This document shows positions 3,149 through 21,760 of a stretch of DNA of 24,488 nt, in pieces. Origin of the DNA: Thioalkalivibrio sp. (GTDB lineage: Bacteria > Pseudomonadota > Gammaproteobacteria > Ectothiorhodospirales > Ectothiorhodospiraceae); NCBI GenBank assembly GCA_003555285.1, contig PWGH01000148.1, positions 1-24,488 on the forward strand, read 5' to 3'. The notes beneath the pieces were generated by a model, which made no database searches, had not been told where the DNA came from, and saw nothing but the letters and a program-made list of their open reading frames with translations. Numbering within the stretch: position 1 is the stretch's first letter; every line of letters starts with the position of its first letter. The position numbers were made by a program, and so were the translations under genes.

Positions 3149-3177
3149 CGGGATCTTCAGCGGCCATCCCGGTTTTT
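3149..3177 (+). terminator. probable intrinsic terminator after the small membrane protein gene
   Basis: A 6-bp inverted repeat CGGGAT (3149-3154) / ATCCCG (3166-3171) with an 11-base loop is followed by GTTTTT. It lies about 70 bases after the + strand stop at 3081 and abuts the stop of the convergent lipoprotein gene. The stem is short, so strength is uncertain. Confidence 0.45.
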
Positions 3178-3716
3178 CACCAGATTGACGCATCCGATGC
3201 CCTGTCCAGTCGCTCGAACATCCGCTGTCGATACCTGTCTCGAGCGGACGTTGGAGCGGGATCGGATACCGTTGCCTCGTCCATTACCGCGGACCCGAGA
3301 CGTTCCGGCCGTTCGAAGCGCTGGTTCGCGGTTGTCGCAGGCGGTGCGTAGCCGAAGGTGCCATCCGGTTCGGCAGTTCCCGGGATCGTCCCACGGCGTT
3401 GCACCGTGACGTCGGTGTGGCCCCCCTGTCGGGTGACGATCCGGTGTCCATCTCGGTACCGCGTGATCTGCGTCCCGTCGGCGTGAATCGGGTCACCCTG
3501 CGTCGCATGGGTGCTGCTCGTGCCGCGGTGATGGTGGGTGTGCACATCCGCCACCGCGCACCCCGTCGCGCCCGGACTCAGCACCAGCAGTAGGGCCAGC
3601 GCGGCGGCACCCGAGGTGCTGAGTCGTTCGATGGTCCCTGGTCTGCCCGATCGCCGGTGTTCCCGAGGTGGAAACCGGGGTGACGCGCTGCTTGTCGGGC
3701 GGCACCGGCCGCTCAC
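3177..3716 (-). CDS. putative lipoprotein translationally coupled to a curlin-repeat gene
   Basis: This encodes a 179-residue protein of unknown family. GTG 3716 is chosen because it overlaps the TGA of the upstream curlin-repeat gene as GTGA, a typical coupling arrangement. No better start is in frame before the hydrophobic segment. A basic ~33-residue N-terminus precedes the hydrophobic stretch TSGAAALALLLVLSPGATGC; the terminal Cys could be a lipidation site, though ATGC is an imperfect lipobox. The mature part is polar. It begins with a His cluster (VADVHTHHHRG), continues with ADGTQITRYRDGHRIVTRQG and TVQRRGTIPGTAEPDG, and ends in a charged tail (SARDRYRQRMFERLDRASD). Co-translation suggests a role with the secreted curlin-like proteins, such as anchoring, chaperoning or export, but this is inferred from position only. 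Confidence 0.6.
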   Translation of the reverse strand: MSGRCRPTSSASPRFPPREHRRSGRPGTIERLSTSGAAALALLLVLSPGATGCAVADVHTHHHRGTSSTHATQGDPIHADGTQITRYRDGHRIVTRQGGHTDVTVQRRGTIPGTAEPDGTFGYAPPATTANQRFERPERLGSAVMDEATVSDPAPTSARDRYRQRMFERLDRASDASIW

Positions 3717-4027
3717 CGCTGTAGCCCCGGTGCACTCGTGGAACGACCGCGGCCGGCGTCGGCGTGCTTGGCGTGGCCGGCCTGTGCCTGCCGGTTCGGG
3801 TTGCGCTCGCGGCCGCAGCCCTGTCCGGTCTGGTTGATGTTCACATGCCCTTGTTGATACGTGGTGTTGGTGTTGAGTTCTCCGCATTGACTGGTTCGGT
3901 TGATATTGACGTGGCCGATCTGAATGGTCGCATTGTTGTTTTCCTGTGCCACTGCCAGTCCCCCCAGAGAGCTCACGAGGACCGTGCAGGCCATCAGCAG
4001 GATCGACGTGGACGTTGAATGCCTCAT
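3713..4027 (-). CDS. secreted curlin-like 11-residue repeat protein, third of the cluster
   Basis: This encodes 104 residues. ATG 4027 follows a good AGGAG Shine-Dalgarno about 9 bases upstream. A Sec signal peptide (MRHSTSTSILLMACTVLVSS, cleaving near AVAQ) is followed by four 11-residue units with Gln in register, for example VNINRTSQCGE, LNTNTTYQQGH and VNINQTGQGCG. The unit resembles half of a curlin repeat (Pfam Curlin_rpt, Q-x-G-x2-N), in which each half forms one beta-strand of an amyloid solenoid. After the repeats the protein changes to a basic Arg/Gly/Ala tail (RERNPNRQAQAGHAKHADAG) without repeats. Two Cys residues sit inside repeat positions. The stop overlaps the next gene by GTGA. 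Assignment to curlin-like secreted proteins is confident; amyloid formation is inference. Confidence 0.8.
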   Translation of the reverse strand: MRHSTSTSILLMACTVLVSSLGGLAVAQENNNATIQIGHVNINRTSQCGELNTNTTYQQGHVNINQTGQGCGRERNPNRQAQAGHAKHADAGRGRSTSAPGLQR

Positions 4028-4124
4028 GAATGTATTCTCCTGGATGTGCGATAAAACAAAGACAGCCCGATGCTGTCGGAAACGCCGTAACCGGGAAGTC
4101 CTGCACGGACTTCCCGGGATGAAC

Positions 4125-4460
4125 CTAACGGTAGTTTCTTCCGGTGGAATAGGCGCCGCGTGTGGATGTTGAGAACGCCGGGTGGTCATATTGGGTTTGG
4201 CGCACCTTGTTGTCGTTGCGTGCCCCGCGCTGTTGAGTGTTCGACTCGTTCTGCTGGCCGACTTGTACGGTCCGGCTGACGTTGATATCGCAATCCTGAC
4301 GTACGTTGGACTGATTGATTCGTTCGTGCTGAATCTGGACGTTGAAACAGGGACCGTGCGTTCGTTCACTGGCGGTTGCGCCAAAGGTGAAGGATCCTAA
4401 GGCCAGGATCACCACACCGGAGGCCATTAGGGTGGCCTTCATGCTGGGATCGCGCATCAT
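4125..4460 (-). CDS. secreted curlin-like repeat protein, second of the cluster (diverged repeats)
   Basis: This encodes 111 residues. ATG 4460 (or ATG 4457) follows a GAGG Shine-Dalgarno at 5-8 bases; an internal ATG at 4442 would also leave a full signal peptide (MKATLMASGVVILALGSFTF, cleaving near GATAS). The mature protein has five units in 11-residue register that are looser than in its neighbours: INQSNVRQDCD, INVSRTVQVGQ, QNESNTQQRGA, RNDNKVRQTQY. Gln recurs every 11 residues and Asn is frequent at turns, as in curlin repeats. Two Cys residues (PCFN and QDCD) could form a disulfide. The C-terminus is Tyr/Ser/Thr-rich (STSTRGAYSTGRNYR). It lies 64 bases after the first curlin-like gene and 97 bases before the third, all on the minus strand, suggesting one operon. 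Confidence 0.75.
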   Translation of the reverse strand: MMRDPSMKATLMASGVVILALGSFTFGATASERTHGPCFNVQIQHERINQSNVRQDCDINVSRTVQVGQQNESNTQQRGARNDNKVRQTQYDHPAFSTSTRGAYSTGRNYR

Positions 4461-4524
4461 TGATACCTCGTGTTCCGGGAGTGCAAAGGGGATCGACGCC
4501 CGGTTCCGGGCGTCGGCACCGGGT

Positions 4525-4851
4525 TCAATGCTGCGAGCGGCCGCGCGTCAGGCTGGAGCGGTTGGAAAATCCCTGCTGACGGGTTTCGTTGTAGTTGATC
4601 TGTCCGAATTGCCCCGATTCGTTCCAGTTGTGATCGCCGCGTTGACGGGTGCGGTTGGCATTATCCCTGCCTTCCTGGAAGGTGGCATTGTCATTGATTC
4701 GGCCGTGCTGGTAGGTGTCGTTGGTGTTGATACGCCCTTCCTGTATCGTGGTATTGACATTGTTCTGGGCGGAAACGGGCCCCGCCAGTGCGGCCAGCAC
4801 GGCGGCAACTGCGATGGCGGCAGGAATCAGTTTCGATGTGATGGTATTCAT
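4525..4851 (-). CDS. secreted curlin-like 11-residue repeat protein, first of the cluster
   Basis: This encodes 108 residues. ATG 4851 has a GAGG Shine-Dalgarno 7 bases upstream. The signal peptide (KLIPAAIAVAAVLAALAGPV, cleaving at SAQ) is followed by an almost perfect array of six 11-residue units: NNVNTTIQEGR, INTNDTYQHGR, INDNATFQEGR, DNANRTRQRGD, HNWNESGQFGQ, INYNETRQQGF. The consensus is I-N-x-N-x-T-x-Q-x-G-R. Curlin repeats of CsgA/CsgB are about 22 residues (strand-turn-strand) with Q-x-G-x2-N motifs, so two of these units equal one solenoid turn, giving about three turns. That is smaller than CsgA (five turns). It is probably the first gene of the four-gene cluster. No csgD/E/F/G homologue is present in the window, so the export route is unknown. 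Confidence 0.85.
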   Translation of the reverse strand: MNTITSKLIPAAIAVAAVLAALAGPVSAQNNVNTTIQEGRINTNDTYQHGRINDNATFQEGRDNANRTRQRGDHNWNESGQFGQINYNETRQQGFSNRSSLTRGRSQH

Positions 4852-5266
4852 GGTTTATCCTCATTGTCGGAAAAGTCGATGTTTGATCCGTTCTATGAAA
4901 AGAATCGGGACGGGCGGGCTTGATGCGGTCCGAATGTGGAAGTCCTGAATCAAGATAATCAGGGCCTTTCCGGTGAGAATCCGGCCCGCCATCCCGCCGT
5001 CGAAATGAGGATAGTGGAGGCAACTGAACGGGTTCTGAACATGTGAAAAAAATCTCAATCGGCGTTCAGGTTTTGTTTACTTTAGGGAAACCCTGATGTA
5101 CCAACATTGCCTTGGGTGGGTCGGGCAGGCGAACAGGTGCCGGCCCGGTATGACCGCGAGGCGGCGACCCGGTCGGGCGCAGCGGTAAGGGCAGCGGGCA
5201 ACGGGCGAGGGCGACAGAGGGGAAGGGGCGAGCTCCAGCGCGGCTGGAGCCAGACCCTGGTGCCGG
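4852..5266. other. 415-base intergenic stretch upstream of the curlin-like cluster
   Basis: No convincing gene on either strand. It must hold the promoter of the curlin-like cluster, but I find no clear sigma70 -35/-10 pair. Two things are visible: an AT-rich patch around 5038-5083 (an A7 run on the + strand, T7 on the minus strand) unlike the surrounding DNA, and a short dyad AGGGAAACCCT at 5084-5094. The 5232-5250 hairpin, listed separately, belongs to the neighbouring DUF3185 gene. Confidence 0.5.
5232..5250 (-). terminator. perfect 8-bp hairpin downstream of the DUF3185 gene
   Basis: GCTCCAGC (5232-5239), a 3-base loop, then GCTGGAGC (5243-5250), 16 bases after the stop at 5267 on the minus strand. 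It has no U-tract on either strand, so it may be a weak or Rho-assisted terminator or an mRNA 3'-end stabiliser. Confidence 0.45.
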
Positions 5267-5479
5267 TCAGCGTCGGGGCGCTCCGAAGATGGTCAACAGC
5301 AGGCCCGCGACGGTAGCTGCCGCACCACCGATGAAGTACCACATGGTTTCTTCGGTGTAGCGGCCGGTCAGACCCTCGTGCACTTCTTCAAAAAAGGTCT
5401 CGGAGGCCTGCCAGCCGAAAAATAGCAGGAGGATGCCTACGACCAGCAGTACGATGCCAAGAATCCGAATGGGCGTCAT
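5267..5479 (-). CDS. DUF3185 family small membrane protein
   Basis: This encodes a 70-residue protein. ATG 5479 is preceded by AGGAGC at 7 bases, which decides it over upstream in-frame starts. It has two transmembrane helices: RILGIVLLVVGILLLFFGW at the N-terminus and FIGGAAATVAGLLLTIFG at the C-terminus. They flank a polar loop with the family signature QASETFFEEVHEGLTGRYTE. DUF3185 proteins are small inner-membrane proteins of unknown function, common in gammaproteobacteria. It has its own strong sigma70-like promoter (5563-5591). A second DUF3185 protein lies at 18809-18997. Confidence 0.85.
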   Translation of the reverse strand: MTPIRILGIVLLVVGILLLFFGWQASETFFEEVHEGLTGRYTEETMWYFIGGAAATVAGLLLTIFGAPRR

Positions 5480-5672: not shown

Positions 5673-8384
5673 CTACGTGGGTTGGACGGTGGACGGTGGG
5701 GTCGCCGGGTGGGAGGCCCAGGCGGCGGTGAAGCTGGCGGCAGTCACGGGATGGCCGAAGCGATAACCTTGGCCGATCTGGCAGCCTTCGCGACGCAGGA
5801 AGTCGGCCTGTTCCGCTCGTTCCACGCCCTCCGCGATCACCTCCAGGCCCAGACTCTGGCCCAGGCCGATGATCGCTCGAACAATGGCTTCGTCATCTCG
5901 GCAGTGGCCGATATCGCGGACGAAGGAGCGGTCGATCTTCAACCGGTGCAGCGGTAGACGCTGGATATAGCCGAGCGAGGAGTAGCCGGTGCCGAAGTCG
6001 TCCACCGCCAATTGGGCCCCCAGCGCTCGCAGGGCATTGAGGGTGTCGATCGAACGCTCCGCCTGGCGCATGATCATCGATTCGGTCACCTCGAGTTCCA
6101 GCCGTTTCGCGGCCAGGCCGGTGGTGTTCAGCACGTGTTCCACATGGGCAACGAGGTCACCGCGCTCCAGTTGTTGCGTGGACAGGTTGACGGCCAGGCG
6201 CGGAAGCCGCAGGCCCTGATCGTCCCAAGCCCGCATCTGGGCGCAGGCCTCGGTGAGCACCCAGGCGCCGATGTCGGCGATCACACCCATCTCCTCGGCG
6301 ATTGGAATGAACAGCGCCGGCGACACCAGGCCTAACTGGGGGTTTTGCCAGCGTAACAGGACCTCGGCCCCGGCCAGGGTCCGATCTTCCAGGTGGATCT
6401 GCGGCTGGTAGTGCAAGAAGAACTCGTCGCGATGCAGGGCGCCGCGCAGGGCATTCTCCATGTGCAGCCGTTCGTCGGCATCCGCGGCCATTGCGGTGTG
6501 GTAGAACTGGTAGGTGTTGCGGCCCTGGGACTTGGACTGGTGCATCGCGAGGTCGGCGTGCTTCAGCAGGTTGTCGGGATCGGTGCCATCACGCGGGTGG
6601 AGGCTGATGCCGATGCTCGCGGTGATGAACAATTCCCGGTTCGGCAGAACATGCGGTTGCCGGCATTGCTCCAGTAGATCTTCCGCGAGGTCGGCAGCGC
6701 GACCTTGGGGATCGTCGTCCTGCAGCAGCACGACGAATTCGTCACCGCCGACGCGTGCGAGGGTGTCGCCGGCCCGGAGTTTTTCCGTCATGCGGTTGGC
6801 GATGGCGCGCAACAAGTCGTCGCCGACGGCGTGCCCGAGGCTGTCGTTCACGTGCTTGAAACGGTCCATGTCCACGAACAGGACCGCGAGCCGGTGGTTG
6901 CGGCGCCGGGCCCGATCGAGGGCCTGCTTGAGGCGCGTGAGCAGCTGGCCCCGGTTCGGCAGCGCGGTCAGCAGGTCATGATGCGCGAGATAATCCAGCC
7001 GTTCCTCGGATCGCTTCAAGCGGCTGATGTCGGTGAACACGCCGACATAATGGGTGACGCGATCCTGCGGATCGGTGACGGCGGCGATGGTCATCCAGCC
7101 GGGATATTCCTCCCCGTTTCGGCGCCGGGCCCAGATTTCACCGCCCCATTGCCCCGTTTCCTGCAGGTGGGTCCACAGGGTCCGGTAAAAAGCCGGGCGA
7201 TGGCGTCTCGAGCGCAGATGGCGAGCATTCCGGCCGACGATTTCCGCCTCCGTATAGCCGGTGATTCTGATGAAGGAACGGTTGACGGAGACGATGGTGG
7301 CGTGGGTATCGGTAATCACGATCCCGTCTGCGGTGCTTTCGAAGGCGCGCGCGGTCTGGCGCAGCTGGGCCTCCGCGTGCTTGCGTGCGGTGATGTCGCG
7401 ATTCACACCGCGCCGTCCCTGGTACTGGCCATCGGCGTCGTACACCCCGCGGCAATGGTGTTCGATCCAGCGGATGTCCCCATCCGGGTGCTGGAGGCGC
7501 AACTCCAGCGTGTCATGCGTGTGCTCGGTCTGTTCGGTGTCCGACGTAGCCTCGATCCAGTGCGCGATCCAGCGGGGCTGGTCCTCCGTATGAATCAGGC
7601 GCGTCATGAGCTCGGGATCCTGCAGGAAGGCCTCGGCCGAGTGCCCGCAGACGTTGGCACAAGCGGGGGAAACGTATTCGTAACGGCCCTGCGGCCCGAG
7701 CCAATACTCCCAGTCCGGGGAAAAATCGGCCAGGATCCGGTAGCGCGCCTCGCTCTCCTGCAGACGTTCGTTGCGCGCGCGCAGTTCGTCCTCCCACTGC
7801 TGGCGCTCGCTGAGGTCGATCACGATCCCGATATAGCCTGTGGGATGGGCGTAAGGCGCCTCGCTGAGGTGCAGCAGATGTAGATCGCCGTAAAAGGACC
7901 GGTCCGGATTGGGGCGAAACAGGAGCCGATGCGCAAGGCTGTGCCCGTGGTCGGTCGCCTGCACCAGGGCATGGGACAGATCCGGCGCACAACTCGGATC
8001 GACCAGCCGGAATAGAAAGGGTTGGTGTTGCCATTGGGTCGGGGGTGCGAACACCGCTTCGGCAGCTGCATTCATTTCCAGGATCACCCCCCTTCGATGC
8101 ATCACCAGGATCGGAAGGGGGCTATGGGCAAACAGCGTCCGATATAGGGTGTTGGCCGATTGGGCCTGTTCCTGCGCCGCGCGCAGTTCGCTGTTCTGGA
8201 GCTCCAACTCGGATTGGTAGAGACGCAGGTTCTCCAGGATCAGTTCGAGATCGATGTCCTCCTGGTCCTGGAGCCGGGCGATGCGATCGAGGGGCGTTTC
8301 CTGCGGCGCTGTGCCGGCGTGCGCCTCGATCTCGAGGTCCGGCAGACCAGGGCCGGATGGGGTGGAGCGTTTCGCAGGGCTCAT
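5673..8384 (-). CDS. PAS-PAS-PAS-GGDEF-EAL c-di-GMP cyclase/phosphodiesterase
   Basis: This encodes 903 residues with no transmembrane helix, so it is a cytoplasmic sensor. An N-terminal coiled coil (about 35-80) is followed by PAS domains around 80-195, 205-335 and 340-455. The GGDEF domain (about 460-625) has an intact GGDEF at 546-550 and an intact inhibitory site RAGD at 537-540, so c-di-GMP synthesis with product inhibition is possible. The EAL domain (about 640-885) reads EVL at 674-676 in place of EAL, a common functional variant. It keeps NLS (733-735), ESM (768-770), DDFGTG (795-800) and AEGVE (851-855), so phosphodiesterase activity is also likely. Net direction cannot be read from sequence. 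ATG 8384 lacks a clear Shine-Dalgarno, so the exact start is less certain. Confidence 0.93.
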   Translation of the reverse strand: MSPAKRSTPSGPGLPDLEIEAHAGTAPQETPLDRIARLQDQEDIDLELILENLRLYQSELELQNSELRAAQEQAQSANTLYRTLFAHSPLPILVMHRRGVILEMNAAAEAVFAPPTQWQHQPFLFRLVDPSCAPDLSHALVQATDHGHSLAHRLLFRPNPDRSFYGDLHLLHLSEAPYAHPTGYIGIVIDLSERQQWEDELRARNERLQESEARYRILADFSPDWEYWLGPQGRYEYVSPACANVCGHSAEAFLQDPELMTRLIHTEDQPRWIAHWIEATSDTEQTEHTHDTLELRLQHPDGDIRWIEHHCRGVYDADGQYQGRRGVNRDITARKHAEAQLRQTARAFESTADGIVITDTHATIVSVNRSFIRITGYTEAEIVGRNARHLRSRRHRPAFYRTLWTHLQETGQWGGEIWARRRNGEEYPGWMTIAAVTDPQDRVTHYVGVFTDISRLKRSEERLDYLAHHDLLTALPNRGQLLTRLKQALDRARRRNHRLAVLFVDMDRFKHVNDSLGHAVGDDLLRAIANRMTEKLRAGDTLARVGGDEFVVLLQDDDPQGRAADLAEDLLEQCRQPHVLPNRELFITASIGISLHPRDGTDPDNLLKHADLAMHQSKSQGRNTYQFYHTAMAADADERLHMENALRGALHRDEFFLHYQPQIHLEDRTLAGAEVLLRWQNPQLGLVSPALFIPIAEEMGVIADIGAWVLTEACAQMRAWDDQGLRLPRLAVNLSTQQLERGDLVAHVEHVLNTTGLAAKRLELEVTESMIMRQAERSIDTLNALRALGAQLAVDDFGTGYSSLGYIQRLPLHRLKIDRSFVRDIGHCRDDEAIVRAIIGLGQSLGLEVIAEGVERAEQADFLRREGCQIGQGYRFGHPVTAASFTAAWASHPATPPSTVQPT

Positions 8385-8706: not shown

Positions 8707-9399
8707 TCAGAGCAGGGGGTCGACCAGACCGTTGCGGATGGCAAAGCGGGTGAGTCCGGCGACATCATGGATGTTCAGCCGCGCCATGATCTGGGCACGA
8801 TGGCTCTCGATGGTGCGCGCGCTGACGAACAGGCGTTCGGCCATCTCCCGGGTGGTGCGGCTCTCGGCAATAAGTTGCAGGATCTCGCGTTGCCGGGGAG
8901 TCAATGCGTCCAACAGCGTGGGTTGCTGGGCGGTGCTCAAGTTCGATTCCGTCAAGCGGAGGTAGGCCTCGAGGACGTGATGGGAGACCTTCGCGCTCAG
9001 CCAGCGCTCGCCGCTCATGATCGTGCGCAGGGCCAGCTCCAATTCATCGACCGCGGCGCTCTTGACCACATAGCCCAAGGCCCCGGCGCGCAGGGCCTCC
9101 AGCACATAATGTTCGTCGGCATGCATCGACAGCACCACGACCTTGACCTGTGGCGTGCCCTTGGTGATCAGGGCTGTGGCGTCCAGGCCATTGAGTCCGG
9201 GCATCGCGATATCGAGCAGGGCGATCTCCGGTAGCAGCTGTCGGGCCAGGCGCACCGCCTCGCGACCGTCGCTGGCCTCGGCAATCACTTCAAATCCGGC
9301 AAATTCCTCCACCAGTCGGCGGATGCCGCTTCGGACCAGCGTATGGTCGTCCACCAGCACGACGCGGATGGGTTTCGTCAACCCAGGGTTCGGCTTCAT
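8707..9399 (-). CDS. NarL/FixJ-family response regulator
   Basis: This encodes 230 residues. The receiver domain (about 10-125) has the acidic pair DD at 17-18, phospho-acceptor D63 in LLDIAMPG, and the conserved Lys K113. The C-terminal LuxR-type helix-turn-helix spans about 162-225 (LTPRQREILQLIAESRTTRE, then LFVSARTIESHRAQI). ATG 9399 overlaps the kinase TGA as ATGA, so the pair is translationally coupled and this is the cognate regulator of the upstream HPK7 kinase. The gene acts as a DNA-binding transcription factor; its targets are unknown. A longer reading frame upstream of ATG 9399 lies antisense to no signal and overlaps the kinase gene in another frame, so it was not used. Confidence 0.93.
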   Translation of the reverse strand: MKPNPGLTKPIRVVLVDDHTLVRSGIRRLVEEFAGFEVIAEASDGREAVRLARQLLPEIALLDIAMPGLNGLDATALITKGTPQVKVVVLSMHADEHYVLEALRAGALGYVVKSAAVDELELALRTIMSGERWLSAKVSHHVLEAYLRLTESNLSTAQQPTLLDALTPRQREILQLIAESRTTREMAERLFVSARTIESHRAQIMARLNIHDVAGLTRFAIRNGLVDPLL

Positions 9400-11054
9400 G
9401 GTGGCGGCTCCGTGATGGGAATCTGCATTTCGACCAGCGTACCGGCATTCGGTCGGGTGGTAATCGTCAGGCGCCCGCCCAGAAGCCGCGCCCGTTCCCG
9501 CATGCCGGGCAAGCCCTGGCCCGGTGTGCGCGGGTCTGGGCGTGGATCCGGATCGAAGCCATGGCCATCGTCCCGGATTCGCAGCGAAACGGCGCCGTCC
9601 GCGACCGCGACGGCAATTTCGATGTGGGTGGCCTCGCCATGCCGAACGGCATTGTTGATCGCCTCCTGGACGACCCGAAACACGGCCGTCTCCAAGGTCG
9701 AGGACAAGGCCGGGACCGGATCCCGCACCTGGATCCGGCACTGCAGGCGTTCGCTTTGGCTCTGGGCATACCAGTGCAGGGCCTCGGACAATCCCAGATC
9801 GTCCAGGATCATCGGGCGCAACTGCCGGGACAGGGTCTGAATGCTTTCCCGAGCGGTTTCCGCGATCTCGATGCAGTCTTCGAGCCGGCGTCGCTGGGTT
9901 ACATCCTGCAGGTCGCGCTTGAGCCGGTCGAGATTGAGCTTCAGGACCACCATCTGCTGACCGAATTCATCATGCAGGTCACGGGCCAGCGCGCGCCGTT
10001 CGTCCTCCTGCACCGAGAGCAGGCGCTGCGACAGGGTCTGCAGACGCTGGGCATTCCTGGACAGGCGCTGCTCGTTTTCCTGCCGCGCGGTGATGTCGTT
10101 CAGCAACGCGACGCTGTAGAGGAATTCGTGGTGCTCGGAAAAGACCGTGGTGGCGGACACACTGGCCCACAGTGGGGTGGCGTCGGCACGCCGAAAACAG
10201 AAATCGTGTTGCTGTGATCCACCCGTTTTACGCTCGGCGAGCAGCTGTTCGACGCACTCGCGATCCGCCTTGGCCACGAAATCGCCGAGCGGGCGCCCCT
10301 GCATGCTCCAGCGGGGATAGCCCAGCATATCGGCCATGCTTTGATTCACGAACAGCGTCCGTCCTTCGGCGTCGGTCTTCCATACGCCTTCCTGCGCCGT
10401 TTCCACGATGATCCGATATTCGGCCTCGCGTTGACGCAACGTGGCCTCGGCCTGCTTCAGCGCGGTGATGTCCACCAGGCTCATCAGCACGTGATCCTCG
10501 CTGTTCTTGCGCAGCAGGGTGGTGGAGGCCAGCGCGAAGATGGGCCGGCGCTTCCCCTGGATCAGCAGGGTGGCCTCGTATTCGATGTTGCTGTGCGGAC
10601 GTCCGGTATCGATGGTGTCCTGCAGGGCTTTGCGCAAGGCGCAGTGCTTGCAGTTCGGTCCGAATCCGCAACCCCGGGGATGCTCCAGGGCATTGATGCA
10701 CCCCAATACACCACAGGCCTTGTCCGAAAGGGCCACGGGATCGTTCGGCCAACCGGTAAAGGAACGAAAATGCTGATTGGCCTCGATCACCTTGCGTCGG
10801 GGGTCGAGCTGGCAAATCATGATCGGCAGCGAATCGTAGATCTGCTGGAGCTCGTTGCGACTCTCGAGGATCAGGGCCTCGGTCTGTTTTGGGTTCGTGC
10901 GGTGCTGGGCGGTGGCGACGTTGTCTGCGGGATCCAACCCCTTGCGCATTGGTTGCGGATCCGGCTGCGGCGGACCTTTGCGGGGCGAGGATGTTAGGTT
11001 CGACGGCGGCTTGATCGGGCTCACAAGGCGGGTGCTCGTTGCGGACGAGGGCAA
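9396..11054 (-). CDS. cytosolic NarX/NreB-type sensor histidine kinase with a cysteine-rich PAS domain
   Basis: This encodes up to 552 residues with no membrane segment. A disordered Pro/Ser-rich N-terminus (1-50) is followed by a short helix. PAS domain 1 (about 70-195) carries five Cys at 114, 119, 129, 135 and 138 (CGVLGC, RGCGFGPNCKHC). PAS domain 2 spans about 205-325. The HisKA_3 helix has H361 in ARDLHDEFGQQ, and the HATPase domain (about 450-548) has NNAVRHG, DDGHGF and GLPGMRERARLLGG. This is an HPK7 kinase matched to the NarL-type regulator that follows. Cysteine clusters in PAS domains can bind metal or an Fe-S cluster, as in staphylococcal NreB, so redox or oxygen sensing is a reasonable inference. 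TTG 11054 is the outermost start; GTG 11024 and ATG 10949 are alternatives without good Shine-Dalgarno sites. Confidence 0.92.
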   Translation of the reverse strand: MPSSATSTRLVSPIKPPSNLTSSPRKGPPQPDPQPMRKGLDPADNVATAQHRTNPKQTEALILESRNELQQIYDSLPIMICQLDPRRKVIEANQHFRSFTGWPNDPVALSDKACGVLGCINALEHPRGCGFGPNCKHCALRKALQDTIDTGRPHSNIEYEATLLIQGKRRPIFALASTTLLRKNSEDHVLMSLVDITALKQAEATLRQREAEYRIIVETAQEGVWKTDAEGRTLFVNQSMADMLGYPRWSMQGRPLGDFVAKADRECVEQLLAERKTGGSQQHDFCFRRADATPLWASVSATTVFSEHHEFLYSVALLNDITARQENEQRLSRNAQRLQTLSQRLLSVQEDERRALARDLHDEFGQQMVVLKLNLDRLKRDLQDVTQRRRLEDCIEIAETARESIQTLSRQLRPMILDDLGLSEALHWYAQSQSERLQCRIQVRDPVPALSSTLETAVFRVVQEAINNAVRHGEATHIEIAVAVADGAVSLRIRDDGHGFDPDPRPDPRTPGQGLPGMRERARLLGGRLTITTRPNAGTLVEMQIPITEPPP

Positions 11055-21298: not shown

Positions 21299-21760
21299 TC
21301 AGTATGTAAGGACCAACGCGTCGAGTTGCTCCTTGGTGATGTCGTCCCAGCGTTCCAGGTTCCATGCGTTATCGCCGCCGATCCAGGTCTTGAAGGTCGC
21401 GTGGTTCCGCTCGCGTTCGCTCGCGTCCTCGCCCAGGTGCTCGTACATGTTGCCCGGCGTACCCTCCGGATGGTTGCTGCCATCGTCCAGGCGGCGCATC
21501 AATGCACCGGTATCGGGGTAGACCACGAACATGATCAGGTCGGCATAGGAATCCATACGCGGGCCCTGATTCATTTCCATGTAGCGATCCTTGTCTTCGT
21601 CGAACTCCCCCACATAAGGTGCCTGGGCACCATGGCATGCGGCGCAGTGTCTCTCAAACAGAGGCTGGATGTCCTCGCGGTAGGTCACTTCGTCGGCAAG
21701 CACAGGGGCGATGCCTGTCAACAGAGCGGCAGCAGTGAAGATGATGCGAAGACTCTTCAT
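21299..21760 (-). CDS. exported mono-haem c-type cytochrome
   Basis: This encodes 153 residues. ATG 21760 has AAGG upstream. The signal peptide (SLRIIFTAAALLTGIAPVLA, cleavage at residue 22) is followed by one haem site, CAACH at 39-43, in DIQPLFERHCAACHG. That phrase is typical of cytochrome domains that sit in larger periplasmic redox proteins. The rest (PYVGEFDEDKDRYMEMNQGP, then DTGALMRRLDDGSNHPEGTP) holds several Met residues that could give the distal ligand, but I cannot assign it. It probably serves as a periplasmic electron carrier, with partner unknown. It is transcribed in the same direction as the PP2C regulator, so they may share a transcript. Confidence 0.85.
   Translation of the reverse strand: MKSLRIIFTAAALLTGIAPVLADEVTYREDIQPLFERHCAACHGAQAPYVGEFDEDKDRYMEMNQGPRMDSYADLIMFVVYPDTGALMRRLDDGSNHPEGTPGNMYEHLGEDASERERNHATFKTWIGGDNAWNLERWDDITKEQLDALVLTY

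Follow-up and report, generated by a model that had tools for sequence, protein, structure and literature searches.

What can short proteins built of curlin-type units do in a cell that may lack the curli exporter? Curlin subunits and the exporter CsgG are customarily treated as one system, and the question is raised by a locus of Thioalkalivibrio sp. (assembly GCA_003555285.1) on contig PWGH01000148.1. The window, meaning the whole 24,488-nucleotide (nt) stretch that was analysed, carries three adjacent minus-strand genes, here called A, B and C, which a preliminary description had picked out as coding for tiny secreted proteins made of a strict 11-residue, curlin-like unit; a fourth gene, D, follows them. 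On balance, and by a little better than even judgement, we read this four-gene operon as specifying a small outer-envelope assembly of the curlin type. Gene D, the polar core of the units, the conserved cysteines, the promoter element and an autotransporter-bearing variant, all set out below, go beyond that preliminary description.

Genes A, B and C encode short proteins of curlin-type units

Gene A (4525..4851, minus strand) encodes a predicted exported protein of 108 amino acids, with a signal peptide to about residue 28 and six curlin-type 11-residue units in residues 31–96 (about 4564–4761). Gene B (4125..4442, with an alternative start at 4460; minus strand) has five units, the first of which begins with Cys in place of Asn, and contains the conserved Cys32 and Cys51. 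Gene C (3713..4027, minus strand; 104 amino acids) has four units and a conserved Cys48; its relatives have up to six units, and a longer mechanical open reading frame (ORF) was rejected as the gene in favour of 3713–4027. By eye and by hydropathy, each of the three proteins has a signal-peptide-like N-terminus. The adjacent genes, signal peptides and series of six, five and four tandem units are therefore present as first reported.

In the mature parts of A, B and C we counted 28, 13 and 17 identities at lag 11, respectively, and these values were matched at the best lag between 5 and 29 by 0, 114 and 2 of 10,000 shuffled sequences. The 11-residue periodicity of A and C is thus above chance, B alone is only modestly periodic, and the shuffles rule out chance repeats as its source across the three proteins. 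The motif N.[NSTA].[TSVIL].Q occurs six times in A and four times each in B and C, against shuffled means of 0.13, 0.10 and 0.11. B is the least regular of the three, so that the word ‘strict’ suits A and C and applies less well to B. The 11-residue length had also been offered as a contrast with curli; it is instead the ordinary curlin strand unit, two of which make up the 22-residue repeat, and Sleutel et al. (2023, PMC10192328) write the curlin repeat as the motif N-$-Psi1-$-Psi2-$-Q-X-G-X-X taken twice.

The curlin kernel (N at position 1, Q at 7, G at 9, with a period of 11) is found in A and C, and also in B, where Cys or another residue occupies some of the sites. Curlins are further expected to have hydrophobic residues or Ser/Thr at Psi1 and Psi2; Thr at Psi2 of A and C agrees with this and Asn at Psi1 departs from it, so we describe the window proteins as working like, rather than being, a CsgA. 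In AlphaFold2 models, the structural check that had been proposed, A and B, each modelled alone, form six and five strands, one per unit. A profile of A searched against PDB sequences gave a solved curlin, 8c50, as its sole match (E = 9.5e-7), and a Foldseek search of A against the PDB returned 40 matches, none under E = 0.001. The proposed search with the curlin family PF07012 gave zero matches to A, B or C of the window at E values up to 10; the B of a relative scored 13.3 bits, with the gathering score at 20.7. We found 55 relatives of A in the protein database, several of them named ‘minor curlin subunit’ by JGI. Among the 28 rows of the A alignment (27 of these relatives and the window protein), a regular expression counted six units in 26 and five in 2. 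Taken together, these data indicate that A, B and C are predicted exported proteins of curlin-type units. A viral origin was rejected, in that none of 27 stretches with the pattern in viral contigs encodes an A relative, and plasmids gave zero megablast matches.

A polar core and conserved cysteines

Although the repeat length is shared with curli, the inward-facing residues are not. With a unit pattern that fixes only positions 1 and 7, Psi1 is Asn in 166/166 units of the A family and in 76/76 of the C family, and Psi2 is Thr in 92% and 97%, respectively, so that A and C present a polar N-x-N-x-T-x-Q series to the inside. The B family is mixed (S, N or A at Psi1, T or V at Psi2). In E. coli CsgA and CsgB, by contrast, Psi1 and Psi2 are hydrophobic in 16/16 matched units. 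As judged from these alignments, it is the polar Psi positions, not the 11-residue repeat, that set these proteins apart from curli. In a more distant A relative (genome G263, locus L058) Psi1 is Ala or Ser, indicating a gradation from the polar core to the usual curlin core. In the same genome, positions 6201-6813 of locus L062 hold two near-identical tandem copies of A, more curlin-like in sequence, ahead of B, D and an autotransporter gene.

Mean conservation in the A alignment is 0.98 at inward positions, 0.78 at outward strand positions and 0.38 in the C-terminal tail, and each individual unit retains residues of its own. The outward conservation and unit-specific residues suggest that A has specific partners and is not a freely varying fibre repeat. 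Two Cys are present in 57/57 aligned rows of B (49 of 60 matches, seven loci and the window), one at kernel position 1 in the first strand, the other at kernel position 9 in the second. According to PMC10192328, the Asn1 of a curlin solenoid bonds to the glycine-bearing arc; given this bonding and the placement of the cysteines, we infer that a disulfide in B would replace the Asn1–arc contact. C has one Cys in 17/17 rows, and a second, slightly shifted by eye, after unit 4.

The cassette is conserved and has a form with an autotransporter

Gene D (3177..3716, minus strand), the putative exported partner, has a GTG start that overlaps the stop codon of C. The window D has a lipobox-like GATGC and a strand-like TDVTVQ, and is without the STAVI-type strand of most relatives. 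Among 35 D relatives, a loose curlin-strand pattern (typically STAVIxQSG) occurs in 31, compared with 2.8% in shuffles, and 17 have a lipobox-like motif, by the PROSITE pattern. No Pfam family matched D over its cut-off.

A scan of genome contigs with the A alignment yielded 21 loci, in Thioalkalivibrio, Thiocapsa, Thiocystis, Competibacteraceae, Chromatiaceae, other Gammaproteobacteria, Macromonas and a Burkholderiaceae bin. The complete order A-B-C-D is found at 19 loci, the window included; these are not all independent, as L013 and L014 come from one bin and several others are close kin, and contig ends truncate L005, L021 and L059. As far as sequence can tell, each of the four genes is thus kept with its own identity and place, which bears out the earlier suggestion of several distinct subunits in one operon.

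Seven other loci are without C, and have the order A-B-D followed by an autotransporter of 467–511 amino acids, with N-terminal curlin repeats and a C-terminal PF03797 barrel in 7/7. PF07012 is over its cut-off in the proteins of L016 and L017, whereas the remaining five score 14.3–19.8 of the 20.7 bits. Among these fusions of curlin repeats with an autotransporter barrel are those at L016:1869-3404, L017:11344-12816, L018:7374-8858 and L019:4641-6164. In 14 other genomes we found no close homologue, with weak matches in G011 and G018, and no such gene is among the window proteins scanned with Pfam. A literature search on curlin-repeat or curli-repeat autotransporters gave no precedent under the spellings tried.

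A candidate PhoP box lies upstream of the operon

The direct repeat GTTCAG-N5-GTTCAG, which resembles a PhoP box, lies 189 nt upstream of A (5024..5040, minus strand), followed 10 nt beyond by the −10-like hexamer TATCCT (5008..5013, minus strand); a plain sigma-70 scan, which requires a TTGACA-like element, does not list this hexamer. The repeat was first read off the window, and relatives were tested afterwards. The box is upstream of A in 20/20 A-B-C-D-type cassettes (the 19 complete ones and L005; at most two mismatches, same strand, within 350 nt), compared with a shuffled mean of 0.165 and maximum of 2. A TANNNT hexamer, a pattern picked after inspection, lies downstream of the box in 20/20, at 11 nt in 18 and at 10 nt in 2. 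Of the autotransporter-type cassettes, one in seven has the box.

Across the 26 genomes of relatives with cassette genes, there are 43 exact copies of the box versus 5 of a reversed control pattern. Allowing at most one mismatch (a limit set after viewing the matches) on the same strand within 1.5 kb, the box precedes 18/21 PhoP homologues versus 1/9 paralogous regulators; the three others are L076, with two mismatches, and L077 and L094, with no box. PhoP/PhoQ-like genes adjoin the cassette in L012 and L014/L015, and of the pair L014/L015, L015 was scanned, where the best NCBIfam matches are PhoP (1.6e-68) and PhoQ (3.5e-63), both below the equivalog cut-offs. In L005, L013, L014 and L015 a second exact box stands back to back with the cassette box upstream of A, and in L014/L015 it faces the phoP-like regulator; the second site of the window (5064-5080) has two mismatches and no gene was seen behind it. 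The two-component genes that lie 7 kb away from cassette L007 of Thiocapsa were considered as PhoP/PhoQ and rejected, being of the heavy-metal type. The literature search found no record of GTTCAG-N5-GTTCAG in the spellings tried. These data make the repeat a candidate PhoP box for Chromatiales and Thioalkalivibrio-type bacteria.

An exact box was also observed 53 nt before the ATG of an exported Gly-rich protein of 108–109 amino acids in four Thiocapsa-type genomes (L105 in G007, L107 in G127, L108 in G006 and L116 in G005). One copy was scanned with Pfam and gave no family over cut-off.

A proposed assembly and its rivals

We propose that the subunits A–C would stack by their ends, pairing open edge strands, to give a short solenoid or fibre of mixed composition, of which A may be the main piece. 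Pairs of cysteines could lock the edge turns of B and C and so make them caps or starters, and D, or the curlin-repeat autotransporter in the other form of the cassette, would anchor the stack at the outer membrane. Expression would be driven by a PhoP/PhoQ-type envelope signal, and export would be independent of CsgG, CsgE and CsgF. Taken whole, as a curli-like fibre or cap system free of CsgEFG, with all-polar Asn-Asn-Thr-Gln hetero-solenoids, disulfide-locked caps, a D or autotransporter anchor and a PhoP/PhoQ switch, this is a tentative scheme that we hold at well under even confidence.

The exporter search covered the 26 relatives' genomes only, so that the window's own genome lies outside it; many of the 26 are bins whose completeness is not stated, while G235 and G236 each consist of essentially a single contig, and G127 comes close to this. 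CsgE and CsgF were found in none of the 26, with a positive E. coli control. The genome search for csgG that had been proposed gave a divided answer, as a CsgG-family protein is present in 6 and was not found in 20, G235 and G236 among them. Around the operon itself, the earlier remark that no csg operon is near still stands: the window proteins scanned with Pfam (six in one scan and ten in another, not every ORF) include no csg-type family, and no CsgD-type gene was identified.

The strongest rival reads A–C as short closed solenoids, located in the periplasm or on the inner side of the outer membrane, which do not polymerise and may, for example, bind a ligand or stabilise the envelope under PhoP-type stress. 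We consider it rather unlikely. It accords with the scarcity of exporter genes, with the conserved Cys pairs and the PhoP-box-like promoter, and with the nearly fixed unit number and conserved outward residues of A, which are unlike those of freely varying fibre subunits. Near-uniform units with open edge strands favour stacking instead, and the partner in the sister form of the cassette is a curlin-repeat autotransporter, which points outward.

Far less probable is that the operon belongs to ordinary curli, with csgEFG elsewhere in the genome. The restriction of the search to relatives, and the six genomes with a CsgG-family protein, leave some room for it. Against it stand the results for CsgE and CsgF and the 20 genomes in which CsgG was not found; moreover, the Pfam CsgG family is unspecific, with 171 correct of 601 matches in a table of PMC3521004. 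An ordinary csg operon elsewhere is unlikely in the relatives. For comparison, Sleutel et al. (2023, PMC10192328) count 1033/43,279 CsgA-bearing genomes without CsgG.

The ratio of non-synonymous to synonymous substitution rates (dN/dS), from four to five close pairs per gene with few changes per pair, is 0–0.18 for A, 0.08–0.40 for B, 0.17–0.38 for C and 0.11–0.78 for D; by this measure the close pairs show purifying selection. The cassette genes are patchy across three orders, in 9/210 (the order of Thiocapsa), 12/47 and 1/399 genomes. That they are what is left of a decaying curli operon, or functionless low-complexity sequence, might be argued from this patchiness and the short proteins, yet is the least credible reading given the low dN/dS of A, B and C, the unit-specific conservation and the retained gene order and promoter. 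A sulfur-globule coat protein, considered since many of the hosts oxidise sulfur, was set aside, the genes being in so few genomes of Thiocapsa's order and occurring in bins of Competibacteraceae and Burkholderiaceae as well.

If the proposed assembly is real, curlin solenoids would have been recruited to other uses in the envelope, and the operon, with no CsgE or CsgF found in relatives, a promoter of its own and a naturally occurring exchange for an autotransporter, would offer a small model for the folding, capping and anchoring of polar-core solenoids.

Spacer hairpins and neighbouring genes

Perfect hairpins lie between A and B (10 base pairs; 4494..4515, minus strand) and between B and C (11 base pairs; 4091..4117, minus strand). 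Stems beyond those of shuffles (p ≤ 0.05) occur in 9/16 A-B spacers and 5/13 B-C spacers, and such hairpins may leave A as the most abundant product. About 3.9 kb from A, a NarL/LuxR-type response regulator and a PAS histidine kinase are encoded at 8707-11054 (minus strand); CsgD likewise belongs to the LuxR type, and we saw no link between this pair and the operon. A DUF3185 small membrane protein is encoded upstream of the operon (5267-5479, minus strand) and a PccH-family cytochrome c farther away (21299-21760, minus strand).

Comparison with known systems

Kernel and spacing are common to A–C and the CsgA-like curlins of the centrosymmetric class, represented by R15.5 of Pontibacter korlensis (PDB 8c50). 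The nearest published case found, in PMC10192328, is A0A249PTX6 of Sinorhizobium fredii, which likewise has a polar core and lies outside a csg operon; its core is Ser/Thr, whereas here Psi1 is Asn and Psi2 is Thr. Unlike both of these curlins, the present system has proteins of only four to six strands, encoded by three paralogous genes alongside D, with conserved cysteines in B and C and a PhoP-box-like promoter. With csgBA-csgDEFG of E. coli it shares predicted secretion and more than one curlin-type subunit, probably with distinct roles, and it differs in its polar core and in the exporter genes of its relatives, with CsgE and CsgF found in none of the 26 genomes and a CsgG-family protein in 6. 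The gene after D in the seven C-less cassettes has the C-terminal barrel of Type V autotransporters (PF03797) and departs from them in its N-terminal curlin-type repeats. Finally, the enteric PhoP box is given as (T/G)GTTTA-N5-(T/G)GTTTA in PMC3335776. The candidate site resembles that of the PhoP regulon in being a hexamer direct repeat with a 5-nt spacer at the −35 position, found also upstream of phoP homologues; it differs in its hexamer, GTTCAG, and in its hosts, mostly Chromatiales and Thioalkalivibrio-type bacteria, and is a candidate by sequence.
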